From Thermanaerosceptrum fracticalcis (GTDB lineage: Bacteria > Bacillota > Peptococcia > DRI-13): a stretch of DNA of 64,000 bases. The notes beneath the pieces are model-generated. The model made no database searches. It worked only from the letters and a program-made list of their open reading frames with translations, and was not told where the DNA came from. Position numbers and translations under genes: made by a program. This document shows positions 10,540-59,319 of the stretch, in pieces. The stretch is taken from positions 2,799,001-2,863,000 of the forward strand of contig NZ_CP045798.1 in NCBI RefSeq assembly GCF_000746025.2, written 5' to 3'. Numbering within the stretch: the stretch's first letter is position 1; the number at the start of each line of letters is the position of its first letter.

Positions 10540-10545
10540 TACGAT

Positions 10546-10784
10546 CACCGTGCCCCGTGCCCAGTGATGGGTTGACGATATCCGCTATCCGACGTCCGAC
10601 ATTTTTTTGGCGAATACGGCTTCGCCTCCCGATATCCGATTTCCGCTTTCCGCGTTTAATTGCTTCCTGATCCATGTTCTAGCACAGCTTTGTCGGTAGT
10701 CGGTGGTCGGTTCGCGGTTAACTGTTAACTGTTAACGGTTCACGTTAAATACTACTGCCAACTATCAACTAACAACTAACAACT
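10546..10784. repeat. Degenerate seven-base repeats between ribBA and ribH
   Basis: Most of the ribBA-ribH gap is built of heptamers that drift in sequence. From 10694 to 10784 thirteen units keep one register, beginning CGGTAGT, CGGTGGT and ending AACAACT, AACAACT. Shorter blocks lie at 10546-10566 (CCCCGTG type), 10577-10604 (GATATCC, GCTATCC) and 10631-10658 (GATATCC, GATTTCC). A GGCGAA/TTCGCC hairpin lies between the last two. No gene is seen. Confidence 0.85.
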
Positions 10785-10804
10785 AAAATTAAGGGAGGAT
10801 TAAG

Positions 10805-11275
10805 ATGACAAAAATCTATGAAGGTAAACTTACCGGGGAAAATCTAAAAATTGGCATTGTGGTAAGCCGGTTCAATGAATTTATTACCAATAAACTACTG
10901 GGCGGAGCTATGGATGCCCTGATCCGTCACGGGGTGAAGGAAACCGATATAGAAGTAGCCTGGACACCCGGGGCCTTTGAAATCCCCTTGGTGGCTAAAC
11001 GTATGACTGCCAAAGGGTATGATGCCGTCATTTGTTTAGGCGCCGTGATTCGCGGGGCCACTCCTCACTTCGAGTATGTTTCTGCGGAAGTAGCCAAAGG
11101 AGTAGCCCAGGTCAGTCTTACCTCGGGAATTCCCGTAATTTTTGGGGTATTGACCACGGACAATATAGAACAGGCTGTGGAGAGGGCTGGAACAAAAGCA
11201 GGCAATAAGGGCTTTGAAGCAGCGGTTTCCGCTATAGAAATGGCCAATCTTTTAAAAAGTATAGGTACTGAATAA
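10805..11275 (+). CDS. ribH: 6,7-dimethyl-8-ribityllumazine synthase RibH
   Basis: RibH condenses the RibD and RibBA products to lumazine, and family members assemble as icosahedral or pentameric shells. The 156-residue product has the usual length and motifs: [43 protein letters not shown] with the catalytic His, and [20 protein letters not shown]. The start ATG follows AAGGGAGG, which itself directly follows the heptamer tract. A strong terminator closes the operon. Confidence 0.98.
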
Positions 11276-26240: not shown

Positions 26241-28256
26241 ATGATGAAGTCTATCACCCTCATTGCCAAAGGAAAAACAACCTGCCAAGCTCTGCTCCAC
26301 CAGCTCCAAGAACTACTGGGGGATCGGGTCAAGTTGCATGGGTACTATGTAGATGGTACGCTAAAAACTACTGTTACCGGTGACCTTGTGGTTTTTTCCA
26401 GTCAGATTGTCTATGAACAAACTAAAGAGTATTTGCCTTTGAACTGCCCTGTGATTATAGCGCGGCGTTCCATAAATTATCACGACATCGATAAGCTGTT
26501 GGATATTCCTGCCGGTACCGGTGTCTTGTTAGTGAACGATTTGAAGTCGTCAACCTTGGAGACTATCTCTTTGTTGCAGGCTTTGGGTTTGCACCACCTT
26601 GATTATTTTCCTTTTTATCCGGGTGTTGAAGATTTCCCTAGGGTTAAGGTGGCTGTAACGCCCGGTGAACTGGACCTGGTGCCTGATTTTGTGGAAAAAG
26701 TTATTGACATCAAAACAAGAAATATTGATATGACCACGCTGGTGGAAATCTTAAGGTTTTTGGAGCTCCTGGACGAAAAGGCTAACCTGCTTTCGGCCAG
26801 GTATATCAAAGATATTTTAAACTTGATCAAAAAAGCCAAACAGATGGCCGATACCAACAACCAGATGAAACACCAGCTCCAGACCATTATCAACACAGTT
26901 CACGACGGGATTATCGCCCTGGACCAGCAGGATAAAATATCTGTCTTTAATGCCAGGGCGGAAGAGATTTTTGGTTTGAATGGTGCGGAACTCCTGGGAA
27001 AGAGTCTTCAGGACGAAGCGTTAGACAAGGAGGTCGTTTCCATCCTCCGGGGGGAAAAGGTGGAGGGAGAAAATTTTGTAAAAATCAAAGAGAGACAAGT
27101 GGTCATTAATAATTCCCTTATCAAGGAAAATGATAGTACCATGGGACGGGTATATACCCTTAAAGATGTGACGGAAATCCAGAGATTAGAAGAAGAGTTA
27201 AGAAGGAAACTCCTGGGCCGGGAGTATTATGCCCGCTATACCTTTGCCGATATTGTGGGAAAGAGTGAACCGTTAGTGTATACCAAAGAGCTGGCGGCAA
27301 AAATAGCCCGCTCTCATTCACCCATTTTAATCCAGGGTGAAAATGGAACGGGTAAGGAACTTTTTGCCCAGGCCATTCACAATGCCTCGCCGCGTAAAAA
27401 GGGGCCCTTTATTGCCGTTAACTTTGCCGCTTTACCGGAGAGTCTTCTGGAAAGTGAACTCTTCGGCTATAACGAAGGAGCTTTTACCGGGGCCAAGAAA
27501 GGCGGAATGCCCGGTCTCTTTGAACAGGCCCACGGTGGTACCATCTTTTTAGATGAAATTGGTGATGCCCCCCTTTCTTTTCAAATCCGGCTGCTCAGGG
27601 TCCTGGAAGAAAAAGAGGTACGTCGCATCGGCGGATCACGGGTTATTCCTGTCGATGTCAGGGTGATTGCGGCCACCAATAAAGATTTAAAGGGACTGAT
27701 CGAAAAGGGTCTTTTCCGGCAAGACCTCTATTACCGCTTAAATGTGCTTCCCCTTAAGCTGCCGTCCCTCAGAGAAAGAAAAGAGGACATCATGACGCTG
27801 GTGGAAATATTTTATAAACGATTTTTTAAAGGGCGTCCCAGCTTAAAGGCGGAAGAGTACTTTAAAGCTGTGCGGGATCCCTTTTTGGCCTATTCCTGGC
27901 CCGGCAATATCCGGCAGCTTCATAACGTGGTGGAATACCTGGTCAACATTTGCCCTGATCGCGCACCTGAGCCTCAGTTATTACCTGAGGAAATAAAGGA
28001 TTTTGCACCTGAGGAGAGCCTCAACACAGAAAAAGATGTGTTTATAAGGAATCTTTTCACGGAAATTGCTGAAGCCAATAAAAGAGGAGAACCTATAGGA
28101 CGGAGATCCCTGGCCGAAAAAGTAGGGATATCCGAAGGACAGGCGCGCCAGCTCATTGAAAAATTGCGTAAAAAAGGCCTGCTCAAGGTAAGAAGAGGAG
28201 TAAAAGGGCTGGAATTAAGTATGGAAGGTCATCGTTGGCTGGGAGCTTTGTCCTGA
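26241..28256 (+). CDS. Sigma-54-dependent enhancer-binding regulator with PAS domain
   Basis: The 671-residue activator has a novel-looking N-terminal sensor region (about 1-205), a PAS domain (about 215-320, TIINTVHDGIIALDQQDKIS), and an AAA+ domain with Walker A GENGTGKE, the sigma-54 contact motif GAFTGA, Walker B GGTIFLDEIGD and the WPGNIRQL element. The C-terminus is not a Fis helix but a winged-helix-like region (RRSLAEKVGISEGQARQLIEK). It lies just upstream of a consensus -24/-12 promoter, so it very probably activates nhaC-iadA. ATG 26241 and 26244 are both possible. Confidence 0.93.
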   Translation: MMKSITLIAKGKTTCQALLHQLQELLGDRVKLHGYYVDGTLKTTVTGDLVVFSSQIVYEQTKEYLPLNCPVIIARRSINYHDIDKLLDIPAGTGVLLVNDLKSSTLETISLLQALGLHHLDYFPFYPGVEDFPRVKVAVTPGELDLVPDFVEKVIDIKTRNIDMTTLVEILRFLELLDEKANLLSARYIKDILNLIKKAKQMADTNNQMKHQLQTIINTVHDGIIALDQQDKISVFNARAEEIFGLNGAELLGKSLQDEALDKEVVSILRGEKVEGENFVKIKERQVVINNSLIKENDSTMGRVYTLKDVTEIQRLEEELRRKLLGREYYARYTFADIVGKSEPLVYTKELAAKIARSHSPILIQGENGTGKELFAQAIHNASPRKKGPFIAVNFAALPESLLESELFGYNEGAFTGAKKGGMPGLFEQAHGGTIFLDEIGDAPLSFQIRLLRVLEEKEVRRIGGSRVIPVDVRVIAATNKDLKGLIEKGLFRQDLYYRLNVLPLKLPSLRERKEDIMTLVEIFYKRFFKGRPSLKAEEYFKAVRDPFLAYSWPGNIRQLHNVVEYLVNICPDRAPEPQLLPEEIKDFAPEESLNTEKDVFIRNLFTEIAEANKRGEPIGRRSLAEKVGISEGQARQLIEKLRKKGLLKVRRGVKGLELSMEGHRWLGALS

Positions 28257-28361
28257 TTGAACTGGAAAAGGGAAGAAAAGGGATGGAAAAGGGAAGGTAA
28301 TGGCCTTCCCTTTTTTGTCGGGAAAAACGTGTAAAATTGGCAAAAGGGCGTAAATGACTGC

Positions 28362-28382
28362 CGTTCTGGGTTATTAAGAACG
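28362..28382 (+). promoter_or_regulatory. Inverted repeat upstream of the sigma-54 promoter
   Basis: CGTTCT (28362-28367) and AGAACG (28377-28382) flank nine bases and end ten bases before the -24 element. It is a candidate binding site for the neighbouring enhancer-binding protein, though closer to the promoter than most enhancers. Confidence 0.45.
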
Positions 28383-28392
28383 CTTTTAAAAC

Positions 28393-28408
28393 TGGCACGA
28401 ATATTGCA
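28393..28408 (+). promoter_or_regulatory. Sigma-54 (-24/-12) promoter of nhaC-iadA
   Basis: TGGCACGAATATTGCA matches the consensus TGGCACG-N4-TTGCA exactly, with the GG and GC dinucleotides correctly spaced. It lies 38 bases before the nhaC start and just after the gene for a sigma-54 activator. Transcription would begin near 28420. Confidence 0.93.
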
Positions 28409-28445
28409 TTTAGAAAAAGAAACTAATACCAAGGAGGGGTCAAAT

Positions 28446-29867
28446 GTGCAAGAAAAAGCAAAAAAACAGCCGTCTTTAGGAATTTCACTGCTGCCCATTA
28501 TTTTTGCCGTCGCTTTATTGTTTTACGGAGTAGGTATTCTCCGGGCCAATGCCGCCATCATGCTTCTCATTATTTCCATGTTTGTTACTTTTCTGAGTGT
28601 GTTTCACCTGGGCTTTACCTGGGAAGAATTGTTGGAGAAGGGGATCAGGCCTACCATTGACAGGGCCATGGGTGCCATCTTAATCCTTATCATGGTTGGT
28701 CCTCTGGTAGGAGCCTGGCTCATTTCCGGGACCATTCCCTATTTTATCTACCTGGGCATGAAGATCTTAACGCCCAAAACCTTCCTGGTATCTGCCACCG
28801 TGTTATGTGCCATCTCTTCCATTATGACGGGTACCTCCTGGGGAACAGCCGCCACTCTGGGCGTAGCCCTTATGGGTGTGGCCTATGGCCTAGGCGTTCC
28901 CTTGCCCGTGGCAGCCGGAGCCATTGTGGTCGGTTCTTACCTGGGAGATAAAATGAGCCCTATTTCCGACACCACCATTTTAGCCGCTGCCACTGCGGAA
29001 GTGGACATCTTTGATCACATCAGGTCCATGCTCTGGACCACCCTGCCCGCCTTTTTAATCTCTTTAGTGGTCTATCAGGTGTTCAGTTTCAAAATATCCG
29101 GCGAAATTGATTACAGCCGCATTAACCAGTTATTAAACGGGATAGACGCCACCTTTAACCTGAACCCCTTACTGCTTTTACCGCCTGTAGTTGTCTTTTA
29201 CCTATCTTACAAAAAAGTACCCAGTATTCCTGCCCTCTGGATCGGTACGGTTATCGCCATGATTTTGGCCTGGACTGTCCAGGGTGCCGGTTTTAAGGAA
29301 GTTATTACAGCCATGTACAGCGGTGGCAATTTCAAAACGTCTATTCCCGAACTAAATAACCTCCTGAACCGCGGCGGCATAACCAGTATGGTTTCTTCCA
29401 TTGCTACCGTTTTTATGGCCTATATCTTTGCCGGTGAGATGGAGTATACCGGAATGTTGGGTAAAATACTGGATTCTATCAAGGAATCCTTTATTAAAGG
29501 AAAAGTTGGTAACCTCATCTTCTCCACCTCATTAACGGGTATTTTAACAGGTCTGGTTACAGGCAACTCTTACTTGAGCATTATCGTGCCGGGAAGAATT
29601 TATCATCCGGTCTTCAAAGAATTTGGTATTAAACTGAATGTTTTATCCAGGACCACAGAAGATTCGGGTACCGTGGTGGTACCTCTCATTCCCTGGAGTG
29701 CCGCGGGCGTTTACATGGCGGCCACCCTGGGCGTACCCACCCAAGCCTATGCCCCCTGGGCCGTCATGTGCTACCTGGGCTTTATCATTGCCTGGCTTTA
29801 CGGTTACACCGGTAAGGCCATCTGGAAACAACGAGAAACCAAGAGAGAGAATTCTGTCGCCATGTAA
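28446..29867 (+). CDS. nhaC: NhaC-family Na+/H+ antiporter
   Basis: The 473-residue membrane protein has about 12 hydrophobic segments and NhaC signatures: AGAIVVGSYLGDKMSPISDTT near residue 155, TSWGTAATLGVALMGVAYGL before it, and LTGILTGLVTGNSYLSIIVP near 360. NhaC proteins exchange Na+ for H+, and some relatives exchange organic substrates such as amino acids. The GTG start at 28446 follows AAGGAGGGG, and any earlier start would lie inside the sigma-54 promoter. It forms an operon with iadA. A role in moving a cyanophycin breakdown product is possible but unproven. Confidence 0.9.
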   Translation: MQEKAKKQPSLGISLLPIIFAVALLFYGVGILRANAAIMLLIISMFVTFLSVFHLGFTWEELLEKGIRPTIDRAMGAILILIMVGPLVGAWLISGTIPYFIYLGMKILTPKTFLVSATVLCAISSIMTGTSWGTAATLGVALMGVAYGLGVPLPVAAGAIVVGSYLGDKMSPISDTTILAAATAEVDIFDHIRSMLWTTLPAFLISLVVYQVFSFKISGEIDYSRINQLLNGIDATFNLNPLLLLPPVVVFYLSYKKVPSIPALWIGTVIAMILAWTVQGAGFKEVITAMYSGGNFKTSIPELNNLLNRGGITSMVSSIATVFMAYIFAGEMEYTGMLGKILDSIKESFIKGKVGNLIFSTSLTGILTGLVTGNSYLSIIVPGRIYHPVFKEFGIKLNVLSRTTEDSGTVVVPLIPWSAAGVYMAATLGVPTQAYAPWAVMCYLGFIIAWLYGYTGKAIWKQRETKRENSVAM

Positions 29868-29897
29868 TAACCTTTCAGCCCATTGGAGGTGTCAGCA

Positions 29898-31073
29898 TTG
29901 TTTAAAATTCTAAAAGGGGGCCGGGTCTTTTCTCCCGAGGACACAGGGGAGAAAGACTTGCTCCTGGCGGGAAATTCCATTGCCTATATAGCGGAAAAGA
30001 TTGATCCCTCACCGGTTTACGGAGAGGTAGAGGTCATCGATGTTAAGGGAAAATACGTGGTTCCTGGGTTCATCGACCAGCACGTTCATTTGATCGGGGG
30101 AGGCGGGGAAGCAGGTTTTGCCTCCCGTACCCCCGAGGTGATGCTGAGCAGGGTAACCAGAGCAGGCATTACCACGGTGGTTGGCTGCCTGGGAACTGAC
30201 GGTACCACACGCCATATGGCCTCATTACTGGCCAAAGCCCGGGGACTGGAGGCAGAAGGACTCTCTACGTATATTTATACAGGGGCTTATGAAGTTCCAA
30301 CCCGTACCATTACGGATAATGTGAGGAATGACATTATTCTTATTGATAAAGTCCTAGGCTGTGGAGAAATCGCCATCTCAGATCACCGCTCGGCTCAGCC
30401 CAGCAAGGAGGATATCGCTAAACTGGCGGCGGAGGCCAGGGTAGGAGGAATCTTAAGCGGAAAAGCCGGCGTCTTACACCTCCACGTAGGGGACGGCCGG
30501 CACAAGCTGGGAATGTTGTTTGAGATCCTGGAGGAAACGGAGATTCCCATCAGCCAGTTTACTCCAACCCATATCAATCGTAACCCGTATCTTTTGGAAG
30601 ATGGTATCAGATTTGCCAAAATGGGTGGGATGATTGACATGACCTCGGGGGTAAGTCCTGGGGCCGGGGCCGATAAATCGGTAAAAGCCTCCCGGGCTAT
30701 AAAATATTGCCTGGAGCAAGGGGTGGCTATAGACCGGATCACTATGAGTTCTGATGGGAACGGAAGTATGCCCCTTTTTGATGAAAAGGGAGGAATCCAG
30801 AGACTCCTGGTAGCAGAACTGGATTCTCTCTATACGGAATTTAAAAGTCTTATTTTAGAAGAGAAAGTAAACTTGAGTGATGCCCTTAAAGTGATTACCC
30901 AAAATCCCGCTCAATCTTTAAAACTCTATCCTCGCAAAGGTTCCCTGCAGGTTGGTGGTGATGCCGATATTGTCGTTCTGGATCAAGACTTAAATATTGA
31001 ATACGTCTTTGCCCGGGGCCAGTGCATGGTAAAACAGGGACAGGCAGTAGTAAAAGGGAACTTTGAGAAATGA
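29898..31073 (+). CDS. iadA: Isoaspartyl dipeptidase IadA
   Basis: The 391-residue amidohydrolase cleaves beta-aspartyl dipeptides. The binuclear zinc site is visible: FIDQHVHLIGGGGEAGF, a tyrosine-containing TGAYEVPTRT loop, the bridging Glu in GCGEIAISDHRS, then HLHVGDG and TPTHINRNP, and the Asp in SSDGNGSMP. The TTG start at 29898 follows GGAGGT, 30 bases after nhaC. Since CphB produces beta-Asp-Arg from cyanophycin, IadA is the likely final enzyme of polymer breakdown. The plant-type isoaspartyl peptidase is not seen in this window. Confidence 0.93.
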   Translation: MFKILKGGRVFSPEDTGEKDLLLAGNSIAYIAEKIDPSPVYGEVEVIDVKGKYVVPGFIDQHVHLIGGGGEAGFASRTPEVMLSRVTRAGITTVVGCLGTDGTTRHMASLLAKARGLEAEGLSTYIYTGAYEVPTRTITDNVRNDIILIDKVLGCGEIAISDHRSAQPSKEDIAKLAAEARVGGILSGKAGVLHLHVGDGRHKLGMLFEILEETEIPISQFTPTHINRNPYLLEDGIRFAKMGGMIDMTSGVSPGAGADKSVKASRAIKYCLEQGVAIDRITMSSDGNGSMPLFDEKGGIQRLLVAELDSLYTEFKSLILEEKVNLSDALKVITQNPAQSLKLYPRKGSLQVGGDADIVVLDQDLNIEYVFARGQCMVKQGQAVVKGNFEK

Positions 31074-31154: not shown

Positions 31155-31157
31155 ATT

Positions 31158-31354
31158 GGGGACATTCCTGTCTATTTCCCGACTTACGACTTCCGATTAC
31201 CGATATTGGATGTCTTAAAAAAAGATATCAGGTGTCGACAAGCTGAATAATTTCATTCTTCTGCTGGTGCTGTTAACAGCATGGAGGTATAGTAACTAAT
31301 AACTAATAACTAATAACTAGTAACTAGTAACTAAACAGGTGTGTCCCCTTTCCT
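31158..31354 (-). repeat. Composite element with conserved ends and heptamer interior
   Basis: One end is GGGGACATTCCTGTC (31158-31172), the other is AGGTGTGTCCCC followed by TTTCCT (to 31354). Next to the first end lie heptamers of CGACTTA type (31180-31214), and next to the second lie six units of TAACTAA or TAACTAG (31293-31334). The centre has the 14-bp palindrome TGCTGTTAACAGCA. The layout equals the element at 59170-59319 in reverse orientation. Together with the terminator it fills the gap of 342 bases between iadA and the next gene, where no gene is seen. Confidence 0.8.
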
Positions 31355-31415
31355 AAATTGTATATATTGTTTTCTCCTAACCAATACTACAGGTGAGAAA
31401 AAGGAGGAATAGCCA

Positions 31416-31671: not shown

Positions 31672-31699
31672 ACTACCAACTATCAACTACCAACTAATA
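31672..31699. repeat. Four heptamers abutting the cphB ribosome-binding site
   Basis: ACTACCA, ACTATCA, ACTACCA and ACTAATA follow each other without a gap and run directly into CAGGAGG, the ribosome-binding site of cphB. Confidence 0.75.
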
Positions 31700-48666: not shown

Positions 48667-48715
48667 TCACTGAAATAGTTTCCCTTAATAACCATAAGGA
48701 GGGACGGTGACCCGA

Positions 48716-49273
48716 ATGAAAGCAACGGGTATTGTTCGCAGAATTGATGATTTAGGTCGCGTTGTTATTCCGAAAGAGATCCGGAGAACCCTGCGTATTC
48801 GCGAAGGTGATCCTTTAGAAATTTTTGTAGATCGTGAAGGGGAAGTGATTCTGAAAAAGTATTCACCGATAGGTGAGCTTGGGGATTTTGCCAAGGAATA
48901 CGCTGATTCTCTTTATGAGGCTATTGGTCACATCGCTTGTATTGCAGACAGGGACCAGATCATAGCTGTAGCAGGCGGGCCCAAGAAAGAGTTCTTGAAT
49001 AAACGCATAGGACCGGCAGTAGAAAAAGTCATGGATGAACGCAAAGCCGTATTGATTAACCAGCCCGGCCAACATGCTTACTGCAGCATCTGTGCCGGTG
49101 AAGAAGGTGAATGTAAATATACGGCTGAGGTCATCGCCCCCATTATTGCCGAGGGTGACCCCATTGGTGCCGTTATTATTGCAAGCAAGGAACCTAACAC
49201 TAAGTTTGGTGACCTGGAGCTTAAACTGGCGGAAACAGCGGCATCTTTCCTGGCTAAGCAGATGGAACAATAA
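48716..49273 (+). CDS. spoVT: Stage V sporulation regulator SpoVT
   Basis: The 185-residue protein has an AbrB swapped-hairpin DNA-binding domain (MKATGIVRRIDDLGRVVIPK, then EIRRTLRIREGDPLEIFV) and a C-terminal GAF-like domain. It is the forespore regulator that adjusts sigma-G genes. ATG 48716 is taken from homology, since the B. subtilis protein also starts MKATG. A GTG at 48707 lies nearer the AAGGAGGG. The GAF domain has CSICAGEEGECKY, a cysteine cluster that the B. subtilis protein, as I recall it, lacks. Confidence 0.96.
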   Translation: MKATGIVRRIDDLGRVVIPKEIRRTLRIREGDPLEIFVDREGEVILKKYSPIGELGDFAKEYADSLYEAIGHIACIADRDQIIAVAGGPKKEFLNKRIGPAVEKVMDERKAVLINQPGQHAYCSICAGEEGECKYTAEVIAPIIAEGDPIGAVIIASKEPNTKFGDLELKLAETAASFLAKQMEQ

Positions 49274-49306
49274 AAAGAGGTGGTGTGATAAACACCACCT
49301 CTTTCA
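49274..49306 (+). terminator. Terminator after spoVT
   Basis: A perfect 13-bp stem (AAAGAGGTGGTGT and complement) around GATAA begins at the stop codon, ending CTCTTTC. Confidence 0.85.
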
Positions 49307-49314
49307 CGTAATAT

Positions 49315-49454
49315 AAGGAAAGGGGACACACCTGCTTAACTAGTTACTAGTCCTAGTGATTCTTGTCGGATGTCGGACGTCGGAAATCGAAATTCGTTTA
49401 CTGGACTCCGGTCACCGGTCACTGGTCACCAAATACGGTTAACGGTTAACGAAA
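49315..49454 (+). repeat. Twenty-unit drifting heptamer tract with the GGGGACACACCT end
   Basis: The tract begins AAGGAAA, GGGGACA, CACCTGC, identical to the left end of the element at 59170, and keeps a seven-base register to 49454. The unit changes step by step through ACTAGTT, TGTCGGA, CACCGGT and AACGGTT types. No right end (AGGAATGTCCCC) is found. No gene is seen in the 209-base gap between spoVT and yabM. Confidence 0.85.
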
Positions 49455-49482
49455 CTGGTATGATACGGGAGGAGAAAATTAC

Positions 49483-51063
49483 ATGGGAGGAGTCATCAAA
49501 AGTGCAGCAATATTGAGTCTTGCCGGAATTATAACAAAGATTATGGGAGCTGTCTACCGCATCCCCTTTGCCCGTATGGTAGGTGATGAAGGCTTAGGAC
49601 TTTACCAGATGGCCTATCCTTTTTATACTATCGTGCTGGCCATCAGTACCGCCGGCGTACCGGTTGCCATCTCCAAGCTGGTGGCGGAACATGAAGGCTT
49701 AGGCGACAAAGGCGGGGCTTTACGTATTTTCTGGGTGGCGTTAGGCTTTCTTTTTTTCACCGGCCTGATTTCCAGTTTTTGTCTCTATGTTTATGCCGAT
49801 GAACTGGCCCTGAAAGTTTTGGGAGAACCCCGGGCCTTGTTACCTATCCGTTCTATTGCCCCGGCTATCTTTTTTACTTCGATTATGTCCGCCTTCCGCG
49901 GTTTCTTCCAGGGTCAGCAGAACATGATTCCCACGGCCCTCTCTCAAATACTGGAACAAACAGTCCGTATAGTGACAGTATTTTGGGCGGCTCTTTTTCT
50001 ACTTCCCCTGGGGATAGAGATTACGGCAGCGGGAGCCACTTTTGGTGCGGCTACCGGAGGGTTAGCAGGTTTACTTGTACTGGTTATGATTTTCGCGCGT
50101 CAAACAGACGGTCGGCAAAGTGTGAGCCGCTGGAGTACTAAAAGTAGCTTGGCCCGCATTCTCTTTAAAGTCCTGGCCCTTTCCATCCCTATCTCCCTCG
50201 GGGGGTTAATTTTCCCCCTCATGCAGATGCTGGATATTTCCCTTGTGCCCATGGGCCTGCAAAAGGGAGGACATACGGTGGCGGAAGCTACCAGTCTTTA
50301 TGGACAGCTCTCCGGGATGGCTGGTTCCATTATTAATTTGCCCACCATTGTGACCATTGCCCTTTCAGCCAGTCTCGTTCCTGCTGTTTCCAGTTTAGTA
50401 AGAAAAAGAAAGCTGGAAGTGCTGGCTAACCTGACCTCGGCTGCCCTGAAATTAAATCTCATTATTACTTTGCCTGCCGCCATGGGGCTTATGATCTTGG
50501 CGGAACCTATTTCCGGCCTGTTATTTGCCTTACCTGAAGCGGGTGAGCCTTTAGCCTGGCTGGCAGGGGGAATCATCTTCGTTGGCTTATATCATGTCAG
50601 TACGGGAATACTACAGGGGCTGGGACAAACACTTCTCCCCGTTATAGCCCTCTTGACGGGGAGTGGGGTCAAAGTGATGATAACCTATTACTTAACCCCC
50701 CTTCCCCAGTGGGGGATTAAGGGGGCAGCTTTGGCTACAGTACTGGGCTTTATGGTGGCTGCTTTTATCAATCTGCTGTTTTTGAAGTACAATGTGGCTG
50801 TGCGTATCCAGTGGTGGAAGGATATCTTTTTCGCCGCTCTCAGTGTTTTTCTGATGGCCGTGTCGGTTGTAACCGGTTATGCAGTAATAGAGCAGTATTT
50901 TTCGGCTGATTTTACTACGCTTTTGACTATTCCCCTGGGAGCCTTTGTTTACCTTGTATTCATCTTCCTCTTCGGTCTTCTCAAGAAAAGAGAGATAGCC
51001 ATTCTCCTGGGTGATGATAACCACTGGAACAACGTTCTGGACAAAATTCCTTTTTTGCGTTGA
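49483..51063 (+). CDS. Polysaccharide biosynthesis/SpoVB-family flippase (YabM-like)
   Basis: The 526-residue membrane protein has 14 predicted segments of the MOP superfamily and opens with GGVIKSAAILSLAGIITKIM, then RIPFARMVGDEGLGLYQMAYPFYTI, as in SpoVB/YabM. Members flip lipid-linked oligosaccharides, including lipid II precursors in sporulation. The position between spoVT and mazG is that of yabM in B. subtilis. Its exact substrate is not known. ATG 49483 follows GGGAGGAG. Confidence 0.93.
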   Translation: MGGVIKSAAILSLAGIITKIMGAVYRIPFARMVGDEGLGLYQMAYPFYTIVLAISTAGVPVAISKLVAEHEGLGDKGGALRIFWVALGFLFFTGLISSFCLYVYADELALKVLGEPRALLPIRSIAPAIFFTSIMSAFRGFFQGQQNMIPTALSQILEQTVRIVTVFWAALFLLPLGIEITAAGATFGAATGGLAGLLVLVMIFARQTDGRQSVSRWSTKSSLARILFKVLALSIPISLGGLIFPLMQMLDISLVPMGLQKGGHTVAEATSLYGQLSGMAGSIINLPTIVTIALSASLVPAVSSLVRKRKLEVLANLTSAALKLNLIITLPAAMGLMILAEPISGLLFALPEAGEPLAWLAGGIIFVGLYHVSTGILQGLGQTLLPVIALLTGSGVKVMITYYLTPLPQWGIKGAALATVLGFMVAAFINLLFLKYNVAVRIQWWKDIFFAALSVFLMAVSVVTGYAVIEQYFSADFTTLLTIPLGAFVYLVFIFLFGLLKKREIAILLGDDNHWNNVLDKIPFLR

Positions 51064-51090
51064 AAGTGTAAATGATTAAGAATACTATAT

Positions 51091-51111
51091 AGTTGTTAGT
51101 TGGTAGTTGGA
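51091..51111. repeat. Three heptamers abutting the mazG ribosome-binding site
   Basis: AGTTGTT, AGTTGGT and AGTTGGA follow each other and run into AAAAGGAG, the ribosome-binding site of mazG. Relative to the cphB and ribH tracts the motif is on the opposite strand (CAACT). Confidence 0.65.
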
Positions 51112-59169: not shown

Positions 59170-59319
59170 AAGGAAAGGGGACACACCTATTTAGTTACTA
59201 GTTACTAGTTATTAGTTATTAGTTATTAGTTATTAGTTATTAGGTACCGGTGGCTTTCAGTGCAATGCTGAAGTCGGGGATTGGAAGTTGGAAATCAGAA
59301 AATGGACAGGAATGTCCCC
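59170..59319 (+). repeat. Complete composite element, plus orientation
   Basis: The element runs from AAGGAAAGGGGACACACCT to GGACAGGAATGTCCCC. After the left end, eight heptamers follow in register, mostly TTAGTTA with two CTAGTTA (59191-59246). The right half has TGGAAGT and TGGAAAT units in the same register, and a TTCAG/CTGAA hairpin lies between. It is the same design as 31158-31354. With the terminator, it is all I see in the 336-base gap between yabR and the sigma factor gene. Confidence 0.82.

Follow-up and report, generated by a model that had tools for sequence, protein, structure and literature searches.

Bacterial interspersed mosaic elements (BIMEs) occupy intergenic DNA and combine a small number of short inverted motifs in varying ways; they are built from REP (PU) palindromes of 35–40 bp, for which IHF and gyrase are known partner proteins. 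The repeats of Nostoc tRNALeu introns have units that we take to be heptanucleotides. In the P6b stem of these introns, repeats of classes I and II occur, one class repeatedly replacing the other, and the motif printed for them, AATCTTC, has seven bases (PMC4476775). Seven-nucleotide repeats, termed STRRs or long simple sequence repeats, are also known in filamentous cyanobacteria and Xanthomonas (PMC4692102, PMC4679880), and in Xanthomonas related species carry repeats at corresponding intergenic positions, where their length and sequence vary extensively (PMC4692102). Direct repeats of TAACTGA are found in Beggiatoaceae, cyanobacteria and Bacteroidetes (PMC4679880), and REPINs and REP elements have been described together with RAYT transposases (PMC3116915, PMC8266576). 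Here we analyse a tract with a seven-base period in a window of 64,000 nucleotides (the whole stretch of DNA under study), and argue that it is probably one of many dispersed mosaic inverted-repeat elements, of the BIME, REPIN or STRR kind, which change by discrete insertion, deletion and exchange together with 7-base slippage.

The tract (49313–49458, forward strand, 146 bp) lies between spoVT (48707–49273, forward strand; SpoVT_C, E 3e-52, with a MazE-type N terminus) and a gene for a yabM-type polysaccharide/lipid II flippase (49483–51063, forward strand), whose protein is 95% identical in the congener G001. It starts directly beyond a terminator-like hairpin of 14 pairs 3' of spoVT (49273–49305), which is conserved in the congener, and stops 8 bases upstream of the Shine-Dalgarno-like sequence of the downstream gene, GGGAGGAG (49467–49474, forward strand, assigned by eye). 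The original prediction described twenty heptamers from 49315 without a register slip, with neighbours mostly differing by zero to three bases and a unit that drifts. The seven-base period is real. Across 49315–49454, lag-7 identity reaches 0.50 and is echoed at lags 14 and 21, compared with 0.245 ± 0.038 in dinucleotide shuffles, none of 5,000 of which scored as high, and in a scan of the window stretches of 60 bp with at least 40 matches occur at lag 7 and its multiples only. The rest of the description needs revision. The first 19 bp (49315–49333, forward strand) are aperiodic, adjacent heptamers there differing by 3, 7 and 7 bases, and constitute a dispersed, REPIN-like left end, AAGGAAAGGGGACACACCT, which is found at 32 sites in the genome with at most two mismatches and elsewhere in the window at 59170 (+) and 31337 (−). 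The register does slip: lags 20 and 27 are also elevated in 49315–49454, and homologous copies of the tract show a one-base gap in module A and an 11-base gap preceding that module. Just 10 of the 19 adjacent heptamer pairs differ by 0–3 bases and, instead of drifting, the unit jumps among four families that recur genome-wide; elsewhere, pieces that keep the order of the tract are about 70–80% identical to it. The order is A-C-D-E, with four short modules represented by TAGTTAC, TCGGATG, CTGGTCA and ACGGTTA, all on the forward strand: module A, of the TAGTTAC family and with the one-base slip (49338–49359); module C, of the TCGGAAG/TCGGATG family (49364–49396); module D, of the CTGGTCA/CCGGTCA family (49400–49430); and module E, of the ACGGTTA family (49434–49451). 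Within modules the period of 7 is exact. The tract folds no better than its shuffles (z 0.3), no Rfam family reaches its own threshold there, and a promoter search in the tract found none.

Searched against its own genome, the tract finds 41 further matches; those covering its bases 2–80 (78–80%), 29–113 (77%) and 86–141 (82%) are the best. It is thus assembled, mosaic-like, from pieces present elsewhere. Module D has an ungapped homologue at L020:11345-11422 (78% over 78 bp), module E has a homologue at G000:C1:2470534-2470589 (82%), and the left part of the tract aligns with intact elements that have AGGGGACACACC and GGAATGTCCCC as their ends. Short 52–54-bp forms of these elements are free of arrays. 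Non-heptad cores are common to several composites. Modules are arranged by an inverted grammar, in which A+C+ outnumbers its reverse by 31 to 8 and D−D+, F−F+ and A+A− occur 13:0, 12:0 and 8:0, respectively; composites are therefore imperfect inverted repeats with fixed outer ends.

Other members lie within the window. One (59170–59319, forward strand) consists of the AAGGAAAGGGGACACACCT left end, module A and a right end, GGACAGGAATGTCCCC. Another (31155–31357, reverse strand) has both ends and folds at z −3.9. A composite of families B, E and C (10542–10807, reverse strand) surrounds a core, AGAACATGGAxxAGGAAGCAATTAAAC plus GGGAGGCGAAGCCGTATTCGCC, that is common to about eight sampled loci. 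Family B arrays stand directly 5' of a ribosome-binding site (31672–31697, reverse strand), where the congener has one extra 7-base unit, and, as a short TAGTTGG array, at 51088–51110 (forward strand). Elsewhere in the genome, a composite at L021:5848-6620 (G000:C1:2485848-2486620) has inverted C modules tandemly repeated about seven times with a period near 109 bp, and its site in a near relative holds a family B array. Inverted pairs are also formed by two AT-rich arrays of a further heptad family, AATTGAA, at L024:19061-19704 (G000:C1:3319061-3319704).

REPINs were rejected as a general carrier of the arrays because a REPIN-like end lies near just 13 of the 135 array clusters. The genome contains five Y1 transposase matches; in the loci fetched, no tract-type ends are visible in the flanks of these genes, which were accordingly set aside as an obvious source of arrays. 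Other REP-like palindromes are present, AAGGGGACGGTTCTCTTGACA at L002 near 1079, close to a Y1 transposase gene, and GAACCGTCCCCGTTGTCGC at L185 near 15650.

The periodicity is a property of the genome as well as of the tract. In a 1.26-Mb sample of the host genome (G000), one third of the whole and made up of evenly spaced and some chosen stretches, matching between intergenic bases peaks at lags 7, 14 and 21 (z 11.5, 7.5 and 6.5), and coding DNA is flat, with no lag-7 peak, as the original prediction had anticipated for a genome scan. An intergenic period-7 peak is present in the congener too (z 8.6), and 80 SpoVT-linked loci of other Bacillota show none (0.0). Strict period-7 arrays number 66.7 per Mb in the host and 52 per Mb in the congener, and those of other periods from 4 to 15 number at most 1.6 per Mb, save the harmonic 14 at 27.8 per Mb; some sampled stretches were picked for holding arrays, which somewhat inflates these densities and leaves the contrast between periods unaffected. 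Together with the shuffles, this contrast rules out chance or a compositional artefact as the source of period 7. The commonest exactly duplicated heptamers belong to the families TAGTTAC/T (A), TAGTTGG/T (B), TCGGAAG/TCGGATG (C), CTGGTCA (D), ACGGTTA (E) and GCGGGTA (F). In each family the core is constant and variation is limited to a few positions. Array members are present in hundreds, scattered between the genes of the host.

Comparison with the congener shows how these sites change. At the spoVT–yabM junction, blastn aligns the window up to 49312 with C110 up to 26162 and the window from 49459 with C110 from 26163, leaving 0 bp between. At 95% identity, the congener lacks both the whole 146-bp block and the composite at 31155–31357. 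The tract thus differs between congeners as a whole block, by gain here or loss in G001. A separate stretch of the window of about 4.5 kb (26415–30933) is also missing in the orthologous G001 contig.

Across 92 orthologous gaps, arrays are found in both species in 23, in one in 6 and in neither in 63. Ten of the 23 shared sites align cleanly, the rest have large gaps or are unalignable, and several of the latter hold arrays of other families. Array sites thus persist, with wholesale replacement of about half of their contents. Counting alignable arrays alone, retained arrays are 97.2% identical, compared with 96.0% for other intergenic DNA and 95.7% for coding DNA. Hypermutation by substitution is rejected on these figures, as retained arrays are no less identical than either. 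The split into conserved and unalignable arrays is the pattern predicted by discrete replacement, and this bimodality, with arrays either 97% identical or replaced wholesale, argues against gradual drift. Unit-sized indels between relatives do occur, as originally suggested, at other arrays: among indels of at least 4 bp, of the 24 in array context, 12 measure exactly 7 bp and 2 measure 14 bp, versus 5 and 3 of 55 outside it, a contrast that is partly circular because a 7-base duplication itself lifts the array-context score. A composite unlike that of the congener (L192) has dispersed homologues of 132–177 bp at 76–85% and shorter pieces at 90–94%, sizes and identities that fit exchange of pieces better than recent whole-element copying; a search for a long donor above 85% found none. 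Simple recent transposition of identical copies is not seen, near-identical dispersed copies being scarce (3 of 46 long arrays in the one-third genome sample).

We propose that the tract is probably an interspersed element of mosaic make-up, with A-C-D-E modules after a REPIN-like left end, inserted between the spoVT hairpin and the next ribosome-binding site, and that it is probably one of hundreds of composites built from a few recurrent 7-base families and confined to intergenic DNA. New composites could arise by insertion or by ectopic recombination or conversion among dispersed copies, and their repetitive foldback structure could aid such insertion and exchange. Slippage by 7 bases might then tune the number of units, and selection would purge elements that land in genes. 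For the replacement of contents at shared sites, we likewise infer insertion or ectopic recombination among copies. The elements at the spoVT–yabM site are most likely near-neutral or selfish DNA.

Of the alternatives, a regulatory function survives best, although we consider it unlikely. The arrays could be selected binding or structural elements of 5' untranslated regions that control translation initiation or mRNA stability, and a regulatory role at these same steps has been proposed for the TAACTGA repeats of Beggiatoaceae (PMC4679880). Placement speaks for this possibility, as arrays abut ribosome-binding sites and are polarised: within 60 nt of a start codon with a Shine-Dalgarno-like sequence, families A and B appear in the mRNA as their reverse complement in 55 versus 8 cases, family C as written in 22 versus 1 and family D in 11 versus 1, all counts resting on crude gene calling. 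Runs of A and B end mostly 12–25 nt before the start codon. In addition, site occupancy is kept between the congeners, and single cases of like placement occur in other genera (L207, L221). However, array polarity at starts may simply reflect the fixed inverted ends of the elements, and need not imply function. Moreover, about half of the shared sites have had their content swapped for unrelated families, the tract is missing upstream of yabM in the congener, and the tract resembles no Rfam family above threshold.

Less probable again is that heptad arrays are made or inserted at preferred sites by an enzyme specialised for the task, such as a templated polymerase or a fixed-step transposase. 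Such an enzyme would explain why length is fixed at 7 when sequence is free: the length is invariant, families vary within and between genomes, like families are patchy in unrelated Bacillota, and contents are replaced at fixed sites. Yet no enzyme or linked gene came to light, earlier work cited in PMC4679880 and PMC4692102 has proposed slippage that favours 7, and dispersed partial homologues account for much of the pattern without de novo synthesis. We are equally doubtful of the broader version, a candidate enzymatic process common to scattered Bacillota, cyanobacteria, Xanthomonas and Beggiatoaceae that would write or swap arrays in fixed 7-base steps at preferred intergenic sites beside ribosome-binding sites, keeping length and polarity but not sequence.

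Mismatch is nearly flat with unit separation (1.12, 1.17 and 1.12 for the first units of A; 1.04, 1.13 and 1.18 for those of B), and within-chain permutation found neighbours slightly more alike in families A, B and E, but in B alone after trimming of end units, in a test limited by its choice of chains at most two mismatches from consensus. Growth of the tract in place with drift, by error-prone copying of the last seven bases or by slippage and point mutation, is therefore very improbable and largely refuted already: 7- and 14-bp indels at other arrays, the exact period inside modules and the likeness of neighbours in untrimmed chains would fit it, but it is at odds with the flat mismatch profile, the loss of the neighbour effect outside B, the recurrence of families and partial orders at unlinked loci, the bimodal identity of arrays and the all-or-none difference between congeners.

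Heptad arrays also occur in other organisms. Of 398 Bacillota genomes, 16 show the A/B family pattern, strongly so in the unrelated G201 (123 matches); family C is found in 6 of 150 relatives, and additional heptad families, such as TCAGCTR and TATGGTC, are present in stretches of these Bacillota genomes, which were picked by their matches and give no estimate of frequency. In one unrelated member of the Bacillota, about seven TCAGCTR arrays lie within 7 kb (G154, L225:2059-8827), two of them nearly identical including their flanks. The spoVT gap of UBA3933 (L048:3558-3800) contains tandem copies of another, longer motif, approximately TTGGGTTAAGATTGTTGGTCAGAA. A contig filed under an unrelated family (G153:C31, L209) is 94–99% identical to the host genome in the stretch tested; it is probably a contaminant or a transfer from a near relative, and was set aside as evidence of spread to an unrelated family.

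More broadly, it is an open question why a unit of 7 bases is so frequent among bacterial tandem repeats, and slippage set by the footprint of the polymerase is one suggestion. In the host, at least six families in one genome have this period in common, and sites stay between congeners as contents are exchanged as blocks. Such block exchange makes the process measurable, as close strains would show donors, breakpoints and rates, and polar placement at ribosome-binding sites makes it easy to test for effects on translation.

Heptad repeats are already known in other bacteria, and their organised mosaic form seems, as far as could be found, to be undescribed; a full-text search of the open-access literature found no description of such repeats in Clostridia. 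The Nostoc introns offer class replacement at a fixed site and stem-loop organisation, but at a single intron site, whereas the arrays described here occupy many intergenic sites genome-wide. The TAACTGA unit resembles the reverse complement of family A (TAACTAG), and its arrays also lie just upstream of start codons. Those repeats, however, have one exact unit with related heptamers rare, whereas units here are variable and belong to several families; TAACTGA itself is not among the common host units, so that placement alone is alike. With REPINs, some copies and the left end of the tract share inverted GGGGACANNCCTG ends, and short array-free forms of 52–54 bp exist. By contrast, most host arrays are without such ends, we could link no cognate transposase to them, and the tract has a left end only, intact copies with left and right ends being found elsewhere. 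With respect to MITEs, which have terminal inverted repeats and a target-site duplication, intact copies carry inverted GGGGACANNCCTG ends, and inspection of two junctions by eye showed no clear duplication. Like BIMEs, the host elements lie dispersed in intergenic DNA and mix a small set of recurrent inverted motifs into mosaics, but they are built from period-7 modules, which makes this a resemblance only. Finally, the original comparison with cyanobacterial STRRs was apt, and such arrays occur in other Bacillota genomes too. STRRs and the host arrays both have heptanucleotide units that are mostly intergenic and abundant in few genomes, and the host shows the same intergenic excess of tandem 7-base units. 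STRR arrays, however, consist of near-identical units, whereas neighbours in the tract mostly differ and its units are degenerate heptads, and the host arrays, which belong to a member of the Bacillota, comprise at least six families set in inverted mosaics that are polar and have non-heptad cores in common.
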